This document shows, one piece after another, positions 51,791 through 59,831 of a stretch of 64,000 nt of DNA (positions are counted from its first letter, which is position 1; each line of letters opens with the position of its first letter). The DNA is from an uncultured Dehalococcoidia bacterium (GTDB lineage Bacteria > Chloroflexota > Dehalococcoidia > Lucifugimonadales > UBA3495). The DNA lies in NCBI GenBank assembly GCA_951813535.1, contig OX638345.1, positions 2,229,158 to 2,293,157 on the forward strand, written 5' to 3'. The translations under genes were made by a program, and so were the position numbers. The notes under the pieces were generated by a model. The model was not told the DNA's origin and did not search any database. It worked only from the letters and a program-made list of their open reading frames with translations.

Positions 51791-51863
51791 GGTTCGGATT
51801 TTAGCACGACGATCCGGGTCACAGTCGACGCTGCGGAAGCCCGGGATACTTACGCTGATTCAG

Positions 51864-51891
51864 TTGACAACCGAGGGACCGATGCTATAAT
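51864..51891 (+). promoter_or_regulatory. Strong sigma-70 promoter of the zinc regulator gene
   Basis: TTGACA (51864-51869), 16-nt spacer, TATAAT (51886-51891) with an upstream TGC extended element. The best consensus promoter in the window; 39 nt before the ATG. Confidence 0.85.
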
Positions 51892-51929
51892 CCGTAACGG
51901 CAAATCACTGCAACAACGGTGGGTGGCAT

Positions 51930-52364
51930 ATGCTTGGACACGAATCAGCTATCGGCCGCTTGCGCTCGCAGGGCTACCGAATTACGCCACAGCGACTTTC
52001 CGTACTGGATATCGTAGCCGGCCGATCCGGTCACATTGGAGCCGACGAGGTTTGGTCCCTGGCCAAGCAGCAGCACCCGTACGTTGACCTGGCAACGATC
52101 TACCGGACTCTCCAGTTGTTGAAGCGCCTCGGTGTAGTAACTGAGGTGGTAATTGGCAACAAGCTTCATTTTGAACTTGCGGACAAGGACAACCGGCACA
52201 ACCACATGGTCTGCTCCGTGTGCGACACGGTTCAAACCTTGAGCCCGGACTATCTGGACGAATTCAGCCAGCGTTTGGAGCAGGAATTCGGCTTCACGCC
52301 AGACCTTGACAATCTCACCATCGGAGGCAAATGCGCGAAATGTCAATCCGCCACAACCGAATAG
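51930..52364 (+). CDS. Fur family regulator, probably zinc-responsive Zur
   Basis: A 144-residue Fur-type repressor. The winged helix has RLRSQGYRITPQRLSVLDIV and DLATIYRTLQLLKRLGVVTE. The dimer domain has HFELADKDNRHNHMVCSVCD and a second pair GGKCAKC, giving the structural zinc CxxC...CxxC. The next genes are znuA, znuC and znuB, so Zur function is the best guess. Fur or other metal specificity cannot be excluded. A near-perfect promoter precedes it. Confidence 0.9.
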   Translation: MLGHESAIGRLRSQGYRITPQRLSVLDIVAGRSGHIGADEVWSLAKQQHPYVDLATIYRTLQLLKRLGVVTEVVIGNKLHFELADKDNRHNHMVCSVCDTVQTLSPDYLDEFSQRLEQEFGFTPDLDNLTIGGKCAKCQSATTE

Positions 52365-52409
52365 CCGGCTGCTCAATCCGATGCAATGACTTGCTGGGAG
52401 GAGTTTCCG

Positions 52410-53450
52410 GTGTCGGTATTGCGTAGCTCCGTATTAATTTGCGCGGTCCTGAATGTCGTCCTACTTTCATCTGCCTGCGGCGGTCAGTCGCCTGAACCTC
52501 AAGGTGCCCCAACCGGAAATGCAGGAGGCGAAACCGCTCGACTCAGAGTGGTCACCACCGTGTCGCCCATCACCAGTATCGTAGAGAATATCGGTGGGAC
52601 CCGGATCAGCCTGGAAGGGGTGGTACCGGAAGGCGTCAACTCGCACACGTTCGAGCCGGCCCCGTCGGTGGCAGCGCTCATCTCCCAGGCTGACCTGATT
52701 TTTCTCAATGGGCTGTTTCTGGAAGAACCCACGCTGGAGATGGCCCGCGCCAACCTGAAATCCGGCGGAATGATTGTCCGTCTCGGGGGACAGACTATCA
52801 CCCGCGAAGAGTGGAAATTCGATTTTTCCTTTCCGGAGGCGGACGGCCAGCCGAATCCTCACCTGTGGCCTGATCCCATTCTCGCCTTGCGATACGCGGA
52901 ACTTGTTCGCGACCACCTGGCCGCCAGTGACCCGGATAACGCCGAGCACTATTCCACGAATTACGATGCCTTCGCGGCTCGCATCGCCACGCTGGACGCA
53001 GCCATCCGGACAGCAATACCCACCATACCGGTCGAAAACCGCCGGCTGTTGACCTACCACGACTCCTGGGCGTACTTTGCGGATCGTTACGGGCTGACGG
53101 TGGTCGGGGCGATACAGCCGTCCGACTTCTCCGAGCCTTCGGCTAAAGAGGTTGCTGACCTCATTCGTCAAATCCGAACGGAGGGTATCCCCGCTGTGTT
53201 CGGCTCCGCAGTCTTTCCCAGCGACGTCATGCAGACCATCGCCGCAGAATCCGGGGCAGCTTACGTCGACGAACTCAGCGACGATGATCTGCCTGGGTTA
53301 CCTGGCGATCCCTACCACAGTTACCTGGGACTGGCGGTGACGAACCTACGGGTAATGATCCCAGCCCTGGGAGGCGACGCTTCCGCATTGGATCAGGTCG
53401 ACGTCTCTCCCGTTTTCGACGGTGTTTCCGACGCTGTTTACGTCCAATAG
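52410..53450 (+). CDS. znuA: Zinc/manganese ABC transporter substrate-binding lipoprotein (ZnuA type)
   Basis: A 346-residue cluster A-1 binding protein. Metal ligands are His in EGVNSHTFEPAPS, His in QPNPHLWPDPILALRYAE, His in LLTYHDSWAYFADRYGL and an acidic residue in the final FGSAVFPS...YVDELSDD region. No His-rich loop is present. The N-terminus has a signal with a relaxed lipobox (LSSAC, Cys 23). GTG 52410 is chosen because GGGAGGAG sits 7 nt upstream. Confidence 0.92.
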   Translation: MSVLRSSVLICAVLNVVLLSSACGGQSPEPQGAPTGNAGGETARLRVVTTVSPITSIVENIGGTRISLEGVVPEGVNSHTFEPAPSVAALISQADLIFLNGLFLEEPTLEMARANLKSGGMIVRLGGQTITREEWKFDFSFPEADGQPNPHLWPDPILALRYAELVRDHLAASDPDNAEHYSTNYDAFAARIATLDAAIRTAIPTIPVENRRLLTYHDSWAYFADRYGLTVVGAIQPSDFSEPSAKEVADLIRQIRTEGIPAVFGSAVFPSDVMQTIAAESGAAYVDELSDDDLPGLPGDPYHSYLGLAVTNLRVMIPALGGDASALDQVDVSPVFDGVSDAVYVQ

Positions 53451-53486
53451 GCAGTTTTTGTCCCCATTTCACCCTTTCGCGACGAT

Positions 53487-54431
53487 ATGCTTCATCCACC
53501 CGAACTAGAGCACCTTCATCGACCCGACCCGGACGCCCGTCCCATTGTCGAATTCGCGAACGTCAACGCCGGCTACAACGGTTCCAGCGTTCTGGAGAGG
53601 GTCAATCTCCGTATCATGCCCGGCGATTTCGTCGGTTTGTTGGGACCCAGCGGATCCGGGAAGACCACCTTGCTGCGGACGGTGCTCGGCGCCGTGCCAG
53701 TGCAATCCGGCCAGGTCTGGGTGAACGACAAGTTGGTACGCGGGCGCCGCCACCGTGCCGGCTACGTGCCGCAGCTTGAAACCATCGACTGGAACTTCCC
53801 CGTGACCGTTGAAGAAGCGGTGTTGATGGGACGAACCATGTCGAACTCCCTGTTTCCCTGGTTTCGCCGACAGGAACGCGAACTGGCCTACGACATGATG
53901 CAGCGGCTCGGTATCGACAATCTGGCGAAGCGGCATATCCGCCAACTGTCCGGCGGCCAACAGCAGCGGGTTTTCCTGGCGCGAGCTTTGGTCAGCAACC
54001 CGGAACTGCTGCTGCTGGACGAACCCACCTCGGGCGTCGACCTCAAGACCCGGGATGACGTGATGCATTTGCTCCACGACCTGAACCACGCTGGGGTCAC
54101 CATCGTGATGACCACGCACGAAATCAATGCGGTCGCGGTGCACTTGCCTCGGATTGTCTGTCTGAACGGCACCATAGTGGCCGACGGGCCGCCGCACCGC
54201 GTGATCACACCCCACATCCTGCGCGAAGTCTACGGAGCGGAAATGCCGGTGATCCAGTACCAGGGCATGACGCTGGTCGCGGAGAGCGCCCACTTCTGGA
54301 TTGACCGCAACGGCGGGGAGCCCCTGGCCACCGTCTCGGACGACAGTCACAAGGAGCAGATCCTGGCGCATACCCACCCGTCCGACGGAAATGTTCCCGT
54401 CCATCACCATCACGACAACGCCGATGCCTGA
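53487..54431 (+). CDS. znuC: Zinc ABC transporter ATPase (ZnuC type) with His-rich tail
   Basis: A 314-residue ATPase: Walker A GLLGPSGSGKTTLLRTVL, Q-loop YVPQLETIDWNFPVTVEE, signature RQLSGGQQQRVFLARAL, Walker B LLLLDEPTSGVD, H-loop VMTTHEINAVA. The C-terminal 60 residues are an extension ending in HTHPSDGNVPVHHHHDNAD, a likely metal-binding tail. It energises import through ZnuB. Confidence 0.94.
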   Translation: MLHPPELEHLHRPDPDARPIVEFANVNAGYNGSSVLERVNLRIMPGDFVGLLGPSGSGKTTLLRTVLGAVPVQSGQVWVNDKLVRGRRHRAGYVPQLETIDWNFPVTVEEAVLMGRTMSNSLFPWFRRQERELAYDMMQRLGIDNLAKRHIRQLSGGQQQRVFLARALVSNPELLLLDEPTSGVDLKTRDDVMHLLHDLNHAGVTIVMTTHEINAVAVHLPRIVCLNGTIVADGPPHRVITPHILREVYGAEMPVIQYQGMTLVAESAHFWIDRNGGEPLATVSDDSHKEQILAHTHPSDGNVPVHHHHDNADA

Positions 54432-54538
54432 ACGCCCCGGGGAACCCGGATCGCACGCGGCTTGCCCGCAGCGGCACGGATGTTAGTTGGACTGCCGCCG
54501 CGACCTACCAGTTTGACAGCCTCGGTTTACCAACTTTG

Positions 54539-55417
54539 ATGCTATTGGAGCCATTCGAATTCGGTTTTTTCGTGCGGGCGATTATCGCGGCTTGCCTGAT
54601 TGGTGGGCTGTGCGGCCTAATGGGCGTCTATATTGTGCTGCGCGGCATGTCTTACATTGGCCATGGCCTGTCCCATGCCATTTTCGGCGGGGCGGTGGTC
54701 AGCTGGATTATGTCGATCAACTTTTTCGTTGGAGCGACGGTCTGGGGATTCCTGTCGGCGGTGCTGGTGGCTTGGACCACCCGACGCAACCCCATCGGTT
54801 CCGACGCTGCCATCGGCATCATCACGACCGCCAGCTTCGCCTTGGGCATCGCCATCATCAGCCGTTTCGGCAGCTTCACCCGGGACTTCGAGGCCTCTCT
54901 GTGGGGTAGCGTACTGGCCGTGGACCGTGAAGATCTGATCGCGATCGCCGTGGTGTCCGCCATCGTCGCCGCGGTAATCTTCGTCGGTTACAAGCTTTTC
55001 CTGTTCGCGACCTTCGATTCCGACGTTGCCCAGTTCTATGGTGTACCCACTGGCTGGGTAGACACCCTGTTCGCATTGCTGCTGGCAGGAACCATCGTCG
55101 TTTCGATGCAGGTGCTGGGGGTGACGATGATAGCCGCTGCAGTGGTCATCCCCCCGATAGTTGCGCGGTTGCTGACTAACAGCTTCCGCAAAATGACATT
55201 GCTGTCCGTCGCCATCGGTATAATGTGCTCCGTGCTGGGCATCTACATCAGTTATTTCGTTGACGTGTCGTCCGGGGCCAGTGTGGTGCTGTTATCGGCG
55301 GCGCTGTTCGTGGGCACTCTCTCCTGGTCCAAGATCCGCGATCGCATCAGCCGCTCGCCGGCCACTTCGAGCGGGATCTCGCAACTGCCCCGAAGCGCCG
55401 GTGGTTCCCTGGAATAG
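54539..55417 (+). CDS. znuB: Zinc ABC transporter permease (ZnuB type)
   Basis: A 292-residue ABC-3 permease with about eight membrane helices. Typical segments: GLMGVYIVLRGMSYIGHGLSH, NPIGSDAAIGIITTASFALG, SLWGSVLAVDREDL and MQVLGVTMIAAAVVIPPIVA. ATG 54539 is used; TTG 54536 is equally in frame. A 107-nt gap separates it from znuC. Confidence 0.94.
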   Translation: MLLEPFEFGFFVRAIIAACLIGGLCGLMGVYIVLRGMSYIGHGLSHAIFGGAVVSWIMSINFFVGATVWGFLSAVLVAWTTRRNPIGSDAAIGIITTASFALGIAIISRFGSFTRDFEASLWGSVLAVDREDLIAIAVVSAIVAAVIFVGYKLFLFATFDSDVAQFYGVPTGWVDTLFALLLAGTIVVSMQVLGVTMIAAAVVIPPIVARLLTNSFRKMTLLSVAIGIMCSVLGIYISYFVDVSSGASVVLLSAALFVGTLSWSKIRDRISRSPATSSGISQLPRSAGGSLE

Positions 55418-55448
55418 CCTCCAAACTTAACGGCCACAGGAGGTCGCT

Positions 55449-56942
55449 ATGGCGCATGCACATCATCACGCGGTGCCTTCGGTAGTGGAGGGCCGCACCG
55501 GCTTCCGAAGGGGGGCGGCGTTCATCATCGGCGGCCTGACCAGCGGACACGGCGTGTTCCACTGGGTGGCTCAGAGCTTTATCGTGGTGCTGCCCGAGGT
55601 TCGCGATCTGCTCCTGGGCGGCGACACCATCGCTGGCAACCTCAGGGCCACCAGCATCCAGAGCACCCGGGAAATCGCCTCCGGTGTGGTCGCTTTGCCC
55701 GGCGGAATCCTCACCGACGTTCTGCGCCGCTACTGGGGATGGGTGATGGCGGTCTGCATGGCCCTGTTCGGCGTTGGCTGGCTTATGATGGCCTCCGCCG
55801 GGTGGCAGATGCCGGGGAGTACCTGGGTCACCACCGCCGAAACCGCCGGCGCGGTGGGTTCGTTCAACGCCTTGGGCTATGTTCTGTTACTGATCGGCAT
55901 GGCGATCGTCGCGATTGCCGCGTCGGTTTGGCACCTGCCAGCCATGGCCGCGCTATCGTCGCACTTCGCCCACCGCCGCGCCTCCGTGCTGACGTTCCAC
56001 GGCGTGGGCGGAAACGTCGGTGACGTCGCCGGCCCTGTACTGACCGGCTTCCTGCTAGCCATCCTGACCTGGCATGCCGTCATCACCATCTACGCCGCCG
56101 TGCCCCTGTTCCTGGCTTTTCTGGTGTTCTGGGCCTTCCGGGATATCGGCCAGCGAGCCCAGGCGGCCGTCGTGGAAACGGCGGCCAACACTATGCGCAT
56201 GCAGGTCGCCGAGACCAGGCTGTTGGTGCGCAACCCACGCATCTGGGGTATTACGGCAGTAGCCGGTCTCCGCGGCATGGCGTACGTCGGGTTCATCACC
56301 ATCCTGCCCCTCTATCTGGCCGATGAGTTAGGCTTGAAGATCGTGGAAGGGCAGAGCAGTTTTGAAAACCTCTTCTACCGTGGTTCGCTCATCGGCTTGC
56401 TTGTGCTGGTGGGGATATTCGCCAGCCCCGTGATGGGTTATCTCTCCGACCGGTATGGACGTAAGATAGTGCTGATCCCAGGGATGCTGGTGCTGGCGGT
56501 GGTGACGCTGCTGATGGCCCCCCTGGGTGACGACATCCTGACCATGACCATCCTCCTGGCGGCCTTGGGGCTCTTCCTCTACAGCGACCAGCCGATCCTC
56601 ACCGCCGCTGCCATGGACATCGTTCGTGAGGGAACCGCGGCTACCACGCTGGGGTTGCTCTCGACATCGCGGTTCCTTTTCAGCGCCATTTCCCCGCTGG
56701 CCGCCGCTGCCCTGTACAACGCCAACGCGGACTATCTCTTCTACTACACCGCCGCCCTGTACTTGGCCGCCGTGGTCATCCTCGCCCTGGTGCGGTTGCC
56801 CCAGGTGGCGCCGGTGGAAGACCACCACGACGATCACGGACATCATGAAGGCCACGGCGATCATGGGCACCACGACGATCACGGCCACGATGATCATGGC
56901 CACGGTCACGGTCAGGGGGACCACGGCCACCGCCACCACTGA
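55449..56942 (+). CDS. MFS transporter with His-rich C-terminal tail
   Basis: A 497-residue major facilitator with about 12 helices and the loop motif GYLSDRYGRKIVLIPG (MFS motif A). The N-terminus is MAHAHHHAVP and the last 50 residues are almost only His, Asp, Gly (DHHDDHGHHEGHGDHGHHDD). The AGGAGG site and 31-nt spacing place it in the zinc operon. A link to zinc or a zinc chelate is inferred from tail and context; classical MFS proteins carry organic solutes, so export or import of a metallophore is one possibility. Confidence 0.85.
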   Translation: MAHAHHHAVPSVVEGRTGFRRGAAFIIGGLTSGHGVFHWVAQSFIVVLPEVRDLLLGGDTIAGNLRATSIQSTREIASGVVALPGGILTDVLRRYWGWVMAVCMALFGVGWLMMASAGWQMPGSTWVTTAETAGAVGSFNALGYVLLLIGMAIVAIAASVWHLPAMAALSSHFAHRRASVLTFHGVGGNVGDVAGPVLTGFLLAILTWHAVITIYAAVPLFLAFLVFWAFRDIGQRAQAAVVETAANTMRMQVAETRLLVRNPRIWGITAVAGLRGMAYVGFITILPLYLADELGLKIVEGQSSFENLFYRGSLIGLLVLVGIFASPVMGYLSDRYGRKIVLIPGMLVLAVVTLLMAPLGDDILTMTILLAALGLFLYSDQPILTAAAMDIVREGTAATTLGLLSTSRFLFSAISPLAAAALYNANADYLFYYTAALYLAAVVILALVRLPQVAPVEDHHDDHGHHEGHGDHGHHDDHGHDDHGHGHGQGDHGHRHH

Positions 56943-56963
56943 TCGTGCACGACGCCAAAAATC

Positions 56964-56995
56964 AGGGGCGACCCCAATGGGGCCGCCCCTATTTT
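56964..56995. terminator. Bidirectional terminator between MFS and cupin genes
   Basis: Hairpin AGGGGCG-a-CCCC / GGGG-c-CGCCCCT (56964-56990) followed by ATTTTTC on the plus strand and GATTTTTGG on the minus strand. Confidence 0.85.
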
Positions 56996-57019
56996 TCGGG
57001 CATCGCCTACCGAGGTGGT

Positions 57020-57379
57020 TTAGTCCTCGTTCTGCTGGGTCTGGCTGCCCTTCACGGTGATGGTGATGTGGGACATGGCGGTTTCACGGGAACCGTGCCA
57101 GTGGTCTTCGCCGGCGGGGATGATCGCCACGTCGCCTTCCGTAACCGACACTTCCTCGTCACGCGTGGCGACGATGCCGGTACCTTCGGTGACAATGAGT
57201 ATCTGGTCGCCGCTGTGGGTGTGGAACTTGTTGCGGACGCCGGCGCCGAAGTGAACGATGCCGAAATTGAAGTTGTTGCTGTCGTCGGGGTCCAGGATAG
57301 CTTGCCGGCCCACGGGACCGGTAAACAGGGGAGCGGTTCCTTCAGTTCTTTCCACTGCAGACATCTTTACGATTTTCAT
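57020..57379 (-). CDS. Cupin domain protein
   Basis: A 119-residue single cupin. Motif 1 is NKFHTHSGDQILIVTEGTG with the HxH and Asp/Gln; motif 2 is EGDVAIIPAGEDHWHGSRE with two His. It is thus a complete metal-binding cupin, unlike the one at 1819. It ends at a shared terminator. Substrate unknown. Confidence 0.88.
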   Translation of the reverse strand: MKIVKMSAVERTEGTAPLFTGPVGRQAILDPDDSNNFNFGIVHFGAGVRNKFHTHSGDQILIVTEGTGIVATRDEEVSVTEGDVAIIPAGEDHWHGSRETAMSHITITVKGSQTQQNED

Positions 57380-58595: not shown

Positions 58596-59831
58596 ATGGC
58601 TTCCGTCGCTGCCGCTGGCCGGCTGCGCGCGTTCTCCGCTCTCCGCCACCGGGATTTCCGGTGGTTCTTTCTGAACATCGGGGTGCAGTCCTTCGGCCAG
58701 GGCATCCAGTTCCTGGGTATCGGCTTCTTGATCATTGACCTGGGCGGTGAGAAGACCGCGCTGGGTCTGGCGGTCAGTCTGTTCGGGGTTTCCAACCTGG
58801 TCTTCACTTTCGTGGGCGGCGTGCTTGCCGACCGAGTGGATCGGAAACTGTTCCTGATCTGCTGCGTCCTGGGCAACGCCGTTGTGACGTTGACGCTGGC
58901 CTTCCTGGCGTTGACCGGCCTGGCCCAGATTTGGCACGTGTACACCCTTGTGTTCATCCTGGGCGGACTGATGGCGGTCCAGATGCCGGCCCGGTTCGCC
59001 CTGGCCGCCGACCTGGTGCCACGGGAAGACATGATGAACGCGGTGGCCCTGCACACGTCCGTTGGCCAGATCGGCAATATGCTGGGCCCGCTGGTCGGCG
59101 GCTGGGCCATCCAGTACATCGATACCTGGGCCGGGATAATGATCAACGGGGTGAGCTATCTGCTGGGCATCGCATTCCTGGTGATGGTGTCACGGCCTGT
59201 CACCGCTACCCGCCGGAATTCATCCCCGGTCAGCGACTTCGTGGGTGGGTTTGCACACGCCCTTCGCACTCCCATGGCAGCGGTGCTGATCTTTCTGTCC
59301 GCTACCTTTGGCTTTTTCGGCATGGCCTACATGCAGGTCGTGCCCGCGTTCACCACTGAATTCCTGCGCCTGAACGCGTTCCAAACCGGCGTATTCATGG
59401 TCTGCCGGGGCGCCGGAGCATTCATGGGGTCCATGGTGGTTGCCAGTTGGGGCGACAGCAAGAACAAGGGTCTCCTGATGTACCTGCAGCTCGTCATCTG
59501 TTGTGTCGGGTTGATAGCCATGGCCTGGTCGCAATGGTTCTGGGCCGCGTGCATGCTGGTTGCTTTGGTCGGATCCACCAGCATCGGGGGGTTTTGGCCG
59601 GTATCCAGTTCGATGATGCAACTGACGACGGCGCCGGATATGCGAGGCCGAATGATGGCTATGATGCAACTCGCTCCCGTATTTCACTTCCTGGGAGCAT
59701 GGCCACTGACCTGGCTGGCTCAACTTTACGGTTGGTCGATAGCAATAACCAGCGGCGCCGTCGTGCTTTTGGCGATCTCCTTGGCCGGATGGATGTATCG
59801 TCCAATGGTACGTCGCATGAACCAAATCTGA
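58596..59831 (+). CDS. MFS transporter (MFS_3, enterobactin-exporter-like)
   Basis: A 411-residue transporter with about 12 helices. Start ASVAAAGRLRAFSALRHRDFRWF, the GVLADRVDRKLFL motif A loop, and ALAADLVPREDMMNAVALH are typical of the EntS/MFS_3 branch. It probably exports a small molecule; in context it may serve the neighbouring HAD enzyme. No separate ribosome site, so translational coupling with the HAD gene is likely. Confidence 0.88.
   Translation: MASVAAAGRLRAFSALRHRDFRWFFLNIGVQSFGQGIQFLGIGFLIIDLGGEKTALGLAVSLFGVSNLVFTFVGGVLADRVDRKLFLICCVLGNAVVTLTLAFLALTGLAQIWHVYTLVFILGGLMAVQMPARFALAADLVPREDMMNAVALHTSVGQIGNMLGPLVGGWAIQYIDTWAGIMINGVSYLLGIAFLVMVSRPVTATRRNSSPVSDFVGGFAHALRTPMAAVLIFLSATFGFFGMAYMQVVPAFTTEFLRLNAFQTGVFMVCRGAGAFMGSMVVASWGDSKNKGLLMYLQLVICCVGLIAMAWSQWFWAACMLVALVGSTSIGGFWPVSSSMMQLTTAPDMRGRMMAMMQLAPVFHFLGAWPLTWLAQLYGWSIAITSGAVVLLAISLAGWMYRPMVRRMNQI

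Follow-up and report, generated by a model that had tools for sequence, protein, structure and literature searches.

A zinc-type uptake operon headed by a Fur-family gene and closed by a His-ended major facilitator superfamily transporter in a Dehalococcoidia lineage

Introduction

Members of the major facilitator superfamily (MFS) that are linked to transition metals mostly export the metals or their ligands. NrsD of Synechocystis, an MFS protein with a His-rich C-terminus, is a putative nickel efflux permease encoded in a nickel efflux operon (PMC4284471). NreB of Achromobacter/Cupriavidus and of Streptomyces confers nickel resistance and is reported to match the family model TIGR00900 (2.A.1.21) (PMC9195940). 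The zinc-linked MFS members of plants, the ZIFL proteins, are exporters (PMC8747725). Neither His-rich tails on metal-transporting MFS proteins nor ZnuABC operons are new. Here we analyze a five-gene operon in 64,000 nucleotides of DNA from an uncultured Dehalococcoidia bacterium (contig OX638345.1, assembly GCA_951813535.1; the whole stretch is called the window below). Genes for a Fur-family regulator and for an ATP-binding cassette (ABC) importer of the ZnuABC kind are followed in it by the gene of an MFS protein that carries His clusters at both ends. The reading that we tentatively favor is of a self-regulated operon for metal uptake, with zinc as the likeliest metal, in which the MFS protein may import the same metal, free or chelated.

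Results

Organization of the operon

Five plus-strand genes with short gaps occupy 51864-56998 in the order Fur-family regulator, ZnuA, ZnuC, ZnuB, MFS protein. The region reads as one predicted transcription unit, bracketed by a promoter and a hairpin. The first-pass annotation had proposed a five-gene operon at 51864-56942; all five genes are found there, the Pfam matches of their products (FUR, ZnuA, ABC_tran, ABC-3 and MFS_1) are all above cut-off, and 51864 turns out to be the first base of the promoter. The parts of the unit are as follows.

51864..51891, plus strand: promoter-like site that matches the consensus at 12 of 12 bases; TTGACA-N16-TATAAT, the -10 hexamer being preceded by TG
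51898..51913, plus strand: putative operator, CGGCAA-ATCA-CTGCAA, just downstream of the -10 hexamer; recurs across fur upstream regions
51930..52364, plus strand: Fur-family metalloregulator, 144 amino acids; Pfam FUR 80.6 bits
52410..53450, plus strand: ZnuA-type substrate-binding lipoprotein; Pfam ZnuA 215 bits
53487..54431, plus strand: ZnuC-type ATPase with a C-terminal extension; ABC_tran 109.8 bits; HHHH at 54402-54413
54539..55417, plus strand: ZnuB-type permease; Pfam ABC-3 207.9 bits
55449..56942, plus strand: MFS transporter, 497 amino acids, 12 predicted helices; MFS_1 117 bits; Shine-Dalgarno-like AGGAGG in front
56963..56991, no strand assigned: terminator-like hairpin of 13 pairs, flanked on each side by A/T runs; lies between the MFS gene and the cupin gene that converges on it

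When the upstream DNA is aligned, TTGAC and TATAAT-like hexamers appear at the same place 5' of the orthologous fur genes. The hairpin is reported by the scan on the minus strand; its plus strand is AGGGGCGACCCC...GGGGCCGCCCCTATTTTT. The ZnuA open reading frame opens at 52386, and an alternative GTG at 52410, preceded by GGGAGGAG, is the likelier start.

The MFS gene as a conserved member of the operon

An initial scan of the sequence collection returned 15 close relatives of the MFS protein, all from Chloroflexota/Dehalococcoidia/SAR202 metagenome assemblies. Since its search words included the His stretches, we then used the entire protein to scan 250 genomes of the order to which the window belongs, extracted about 100 loci (L-numbers below; G-numbers are genomes) and read their tails and neighbors. 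In the tree of 99 MFS proteins the window protein and 20 others, at 68-96% identity to it, form one clade with support 100/100. The pairing of a His-tailed MFS gene with znu genes, which the first-pass annotation had proposed to look for, is the rule here: in 18 of the 21 orthologues the gene follows znuB directly and at short spacing. The label of znuB linkage changes once on the tree, that of the C-terminal tail four times.

All 21 full-length orthologues have the tail; their last 60 residues contain 6-22 His. Its sequence and length vary, and both His ends are nevertheless kept in 21/21, so they are not there by chance. Among the 78 more distant proteins of the tree (some on short contigs) none was found beside znuB; a His-rich C-tail occurs in 5 of them, N-terminal His only in 16, and most have neither. 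The pattern that was to speak against a role in metal transport, homologues without the tail and for the most part not in metal operons, is thus found in the wider family and not in the orthologue clade.

This pattern bears on the possibility that the MFS gene simply belongs to the neighborhood, its His ends being a habit of the lineage with no metal role. His-rich N- or C-ends do occur in relatives that are not beside znu genes (L082, L083, L086, L094, L115), and three of the orthologues are located elsewhere; however, the short-spaced linkage and the retention of both ends despite tail drift make such hitch-hiking very unlikely. As a separate observation, L082, L083, L086, L094 and L112 are distant MFS relatives with His/Gly-rich C-tails of their own, and several of them adjoin ligA-like or gatB-like genes (judged by eye) and not metal operons.

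ZnuB orthologues are present in 68 of the 250 genomes. Sixteen znuB loci with no adjacent MFS gene were read, most of them in the same order fur-znuA-znuC-znuB, and the operon is therefore older than its fifth gene. From the tree and these loci we suggest that the MFS gene was probably added to it once. The genomes of two unlinked exceptions (G452, G454) have a znuB orthologue at another locus.

Next to join the clade on the tree are the MFS proteins of L079 and L080 (support 88/90). Both loci are headed by a gene of the same Fur subgroup, which is followed by a weakly NicO-like gene (in L079 the NicO match is below the Pfam cut-off), a TIGR00900-type MFS gene and then a relative of the window MFS gene. 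In place of znuACB, L079:2084-7909 and L080:3100-9155 have a weakly NicO/DsbD_2-like membrane protein gene and the two MFS genes after fur; genes for a DUF1932 dehydrogenase-like protein and for a cupin come next. The window likewise encodes a small cupin (Cupin_2) protein at 57020-57379, on the minus strand and convergent with the operon; L078, L079, L080 and L211 have homologues of it at the same locus. The shared cupin gene suggests that the window and these four represent one syntenic locus with exchanged transporter modules.

The MFS protein

The features that distinguish the protein lie at its ends and in two loops.

55449..55472, plus strand: N-terminal His cluster MAHAHHHA, in all full-length orthologues
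55797..55871, plus strand: clade-specific insertion in the loop between transmembrane helices (TM) 3 and 4, about residues 117-141; predicted to be extracytoplasmic; all the more distant members of alignment A2 lack it
56337..56378, plus strand: second clade-specific insertion, TM7-TM8 loop, about residues 297-310; predicted extracytoplasmic; alignment A2
56799..56939, plus strand: C-terminal tail of His, Asp and Gly, residues 451-497; of these 47 residues, 18 are H, 10 are G and 9 are D

The 12 helices, the tail of about 50 residues rich in His, Asp and Gly, and the N-terminal HAHHH (in MAHAHHH) had been picked out at first pass and are borne out. That such a tail is unusual on an MFS protein also holds, but it is not new, for NrsD has one. 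Judged by alignment, the clade is set apart by its His ends together with the two outer loops. In the MFS protein of L073 (L073:6142-7911, 589 amino acids) the tail is built of repeated GHEDHGEHGHGHDHGAHAEH units.

Membership of the superfamily is supported by the MFS_1 match and by two motif-A loops, GGILTDVLRR after TM2 and GYLSDRYGRK after TM8, in which D90 and D334/R338 are invariant. Both loops are cytosolic in the MFS fold, and with 12 helices the two His ends should therefore lie on the cytoplasmic side. An AlphaFold2 model made on 16 close orthologues (alignment A3) has a mean pLDDT (the predicted local confidence score) of 50, with an unreliable core, and adds nothing on topology. A search of the plasmid collection with the protein gave weak partial matches only.

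The predicted cytosolic position of the ends is also what one would expect of an exporter, namely a valve for the imported metal or for nickel, cobalt or cadmium taken up by mistake, with the tail serving as a cytosolic sensor, as proposed for NrsD/NreB. The precedents lean the same way: NrsD comes from an efflux operon, NreB gives nickel resistance, and the ZIFL proteins export. However, the window gene and the genes of an uptake system have a single predicted promoter in common, and efflux induced by shortage makes little sense unless the cargo is another metal. Moreover, the protein lacks a match to the model of NreB: TIGR00900 is not among its 18 NCBIfam matches (E<=0.01), while two controls, the products of window 58596-59828 and of L079:3569-4831, do match it. 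TIGR00900 was used after comparison with NreB had been tried through two MFS genes of pMOL30, neither of which has a His tail. We consider export unlikely on this evidence. The control at 58596-59828 is itself a TIGR00900/MFS_3-type protein, of the class of NreB, without a His tail and encoded 1.7 kb past the operon.

The core leaves room for a different cargo. The invariant core residues include H34, H38, R74, H162, H184 and R275, and the best PDB profile matches are the glycerol-3-phosphate transporter GlpT (1.3e-14), then the glucose-6-phosphate exchanger and sialin. The cargo of the core might thus be a small ligand or an organic anion, such as a metallophore, a carboxylate or a phosphorylated compound, the His ends only tuning the core to the metal state of the cell. 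The same residues are found in tail-less paralogues outside metal operons. Staphylopine-type systems, moreover, pair an MFS exporter with an ABC importer. Against such a cargo, no ligand-synthesis gene occurs in the operon or its neighborhood, and the GlpT match is at superfamily level with Arg residues that do not align exactly, for which reason assignment of the core to the GlpT/OPA family was rejected. A ligand as the cargo appears improbable to us.

The ZnuABC importer and its metal

By family and ligand residues the ABC part is of the ZnuABC/AztABC type. ZnuA has ligand-type His in NSHTFEP, NPHLW and YHDSWAYF. In the alignment this is the three-His set of Synechocystis and E. coli ZnuA, whereas the manganese binder MntA has Glu at the third position; the three His are kept in 16 ZnuA sequences. 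ZnuA, ZnuB and ZnuC of the window all fall below the NCBIfam cut-offs for ZnuA/B/C and AztA/B/C. AztC is the best model for ZnuA and AztB for ZnuB, and the zinc-equivalog models are not reached (AztC 175 of 350 bits, AztB 187 of 280, AztA 181 of 220), so that the metal is not assigned by model. The ligand residues point to zinc as the probable metal; manganese or iron would be improbable.

ZnuC ends in ...PVHHHHDNADA, the His cluster noticed at first pass. Close orthologues share the HHHH end, while others have lost or altered it; it is also present in the L203 operon, which has no MFS gene. In L066 (L066:7547-8650) ZnuC ends in tandem HTDGP-like repeats.

Further genes of the Znu type lie elsewhere in the same genome. 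L157:3673-6378 (about 2.330-2.333 Mb, about 40 kb past the window) encodes ZnuA-ZnuC-ZnuB, the ZnuA having a His-rich loop (DDHDHGDGNADHDHGDADHDHG), and a further ABC-3 permease match adjoins this set on the opposite strand. L134:5835-8108 and L135:5328-7649 (about 3.145 and 3.837 Mb) encode ZnuA-type lipoproteins with an AztD zinc-chaperone domain between the ZnuA lobes. The domain is nearly full-length (NCBIfam NF038015, 2e-36, checked for L134) and stands at the position of the ZnuA His loop. Each of the two genes follows a Fur-family gene; no permease gene was seen beside either.

The regulator and its operator

The regulator had been called Zur-like, which is not established. NCBIfam ranks it as Fur (93.5 bits) and PerR (68.2) before Zur (50.9), all below cut-off. 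Its PDB matches are Fur (3.6e-22), Nur as second best (2e-20) and E. coli Zur (8.4e-9). It shares with Zur, Fur and Nur the Fur fold, the CxxC pairs and Fur-like regulatory residues (H33, E81, HxH), but lacks the regulatory Cys of E. coli Zur and the extra Ni-site His of Nur. In terms of residues, then, it is a Fur-family protein with the signature of neither Zur nor Nur.

A Zur box had been expected near 51860-51930. An operator-like site is indeed present there, at 51898-51913, but its half-sites resemble the Nur box, tTGCaa-N5-ttGCAA (PMC3919588). Scored over 29 fur upstream regions, the family consensus is TYGCAA-N4-TTGCAA, at the same place and in the same form in nearly all. It is also found at loci with ZnuACB and no MFS gene, and at one locus with a NicO-like gene instead. 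Taken locus by locus, 0 to 18 of 200 shuffles score as high as the operator, with L080 as an exception at 81, and the strength of the operator therefore lies in its return at a constant position. In the 4.38 Mb genome the window operator is the sole occurrence of GCAAATCNNTGCAA without a mismatch, which makes a local autoregulated unit likelier than a wide regulon. A wider regulon sought by this pattern was rejected: one mismatch gives 11 matches against 7 for a reversed control, with no convincing second promoter site.

These half-sites, with a spacer one base shorter than that of the Nur box, raise the question of an operon for nickel or cobalt, with a Nur-like regulator and an unrecognized Ni/Co ABC importer. 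The rank of Nur among the PDB matches and the L079 operon, where the same regulator family heads a weakly NicO-like transporter, are in line with it. On the other hand, the regulator has TEVV in place of the Nur Ni-site motif SHAH, the established metals of ABC-3/ZnuA systems are Zn, Mn and Fe, the ZnuA ligands are zinc-type, and the NicO match does not reach its cut-off. Nickel or cobalt is, hence, quite improbable as the metal of the operon.

Discussion

We return to the favored reading of a self-regulated uptake operon with an importing MFS protein and propose the following sequence of events.

Step 1: The metal-loaded Fur-family protein would bind the TYGCAA-N4-TTGCAA operator, which touches the -10 box, and thereby switch the operon off.

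Step 2: Metal shortage would lift the repression. ZnuA would then capture the metal outside the cell, and ZnuBC would import it with ATP.

Step 3: The MFS protein, whose gene was presumably recruited once in the lineage, would act as a secondary transporter induced under the same conditions. Its most likely cargo would be the same metal, free or chelated, taken inward by ion-coupled transport. On the inner side, the cytoplasmic His-rich ends may bind the metal and serve either to receive it or to gate the transport.

The sequences themselves show the gene order, the conservation of the unit and of the operator-like site, the two His ends, the zinc-type ligands of ZnuA and a single origin of the linkage. 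Inward transport is the most conjectural of these steps; repression by metal, zinc as the metal, and the location and metal binding of the ends are conjectural to a lesser degree. The operon context argues for a role of the MFS protein under metal shortage. The favored reading as a whole is supported by the linkage to znuB, the retention of both His ends, the bracketing by promoter and hairpin, the recurring operator, the ZnuA His residues and the fur-led NicO-like loci L079 and L080. The full form of the proposal, in which the protein is an importer of zinc or zinc chelate parallel to ZnuABC, both under one Fur-family switch, with the His-rich cytoplasmic ends as metal-binding gates, we rate as rather unlikely. 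The first-pass annotation had read a zinc or zinc-chelate transporter from gene position. The place in a zinc-type operon is conserved, as we find, but position does not show import, and the known MFS metal transporters with His tails export.

Several observations weigh against the favored reading. The MFS precedents for metals, His-tailed NrsD as well as NreB and ZIFL, are exporters. The genome has its second ZnuABC (L157), whose ZnuA carries the His-rich loop, and the window system therefore need not be the zinc one. The two Fur-ZnuA loci with an AztD domain and the sub-threshold scores of the NCBIfam zinc models likewise speak against certainty about zinc. The regulatory Cys (C88 in E. coli Zur) is replaced by Phe/Tyr in the aligned column throughout the regulator group, and the operator half-sites equal those of the Nur box, with a spacer of N4 against N5. 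The invariant core residues are common to tail-less paralogues outside metal operons; the core chemistry is therefore not unique to the operon, and the core may carry a non-metal cargo. Lastly, the orthologues of L067, L070 and L074 are not beside znu genes and keep both His ends.

If the importer reading is true, the protein would provide a route of zinc uptake by secondary transport outside the ZIP, NRAMP and ABC families. A His-ended MFS protein in a zinc-type uptake operon across a Chloroflexota lineage is a candidate either for a new secondary importer or for an unexpected pairing of uptake with a valve. With the conserved operator and the mixed Fur/Nur features of the regulator, it also becomes possible to test directly which metal is sensed by a Fur subgroup that is common but unstudied.

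Comparison with known systems

Our literature search found no description of the MFS-znu arrangement in Chloroflexi, and a further search listed no SAR202 paper. As far as the literature was searched, there is no earlier account of the combination, of its conservation throughout the clade or of its distance from the NreB subfamily.

With the ZnuABC/AztABC importers (cluster A-I) the window operon has in common the ZnuA, ZnuC and ZnuB families, the three-His ligand set and the form of an uptake operon. It differs in that its ZnuA has no His-rich loop, its ZnuC carries the His-cluster extension and a fifth gene is added.

Fsr, the fosmidomycin efflux protein of E. coli, aligns to the family profile over its full length with 21% identity and an hhalign probability of 98%, but it has no His ends, and any two MFS proteins would be expected to match in this way; membership of Fsr was rejected as these values are not specific within the superfamily. 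Plant ZIF1/ZIFL (zinc/nicotianamine export) also combine the MFS with zinc homeostasis; they are eukaryotic exporters, likened here by description only.

NrsD and NreB are likewise 12-helix MFS proteins of metal operons, and the His-rich C-terminal tail is common with NrsD (PMC4284471). Unlike them, the MFS protein of the window adds an N-terminal His cluster, and its gene ends a Fur-led uptake operon and not a nickel-induced efflux operon.

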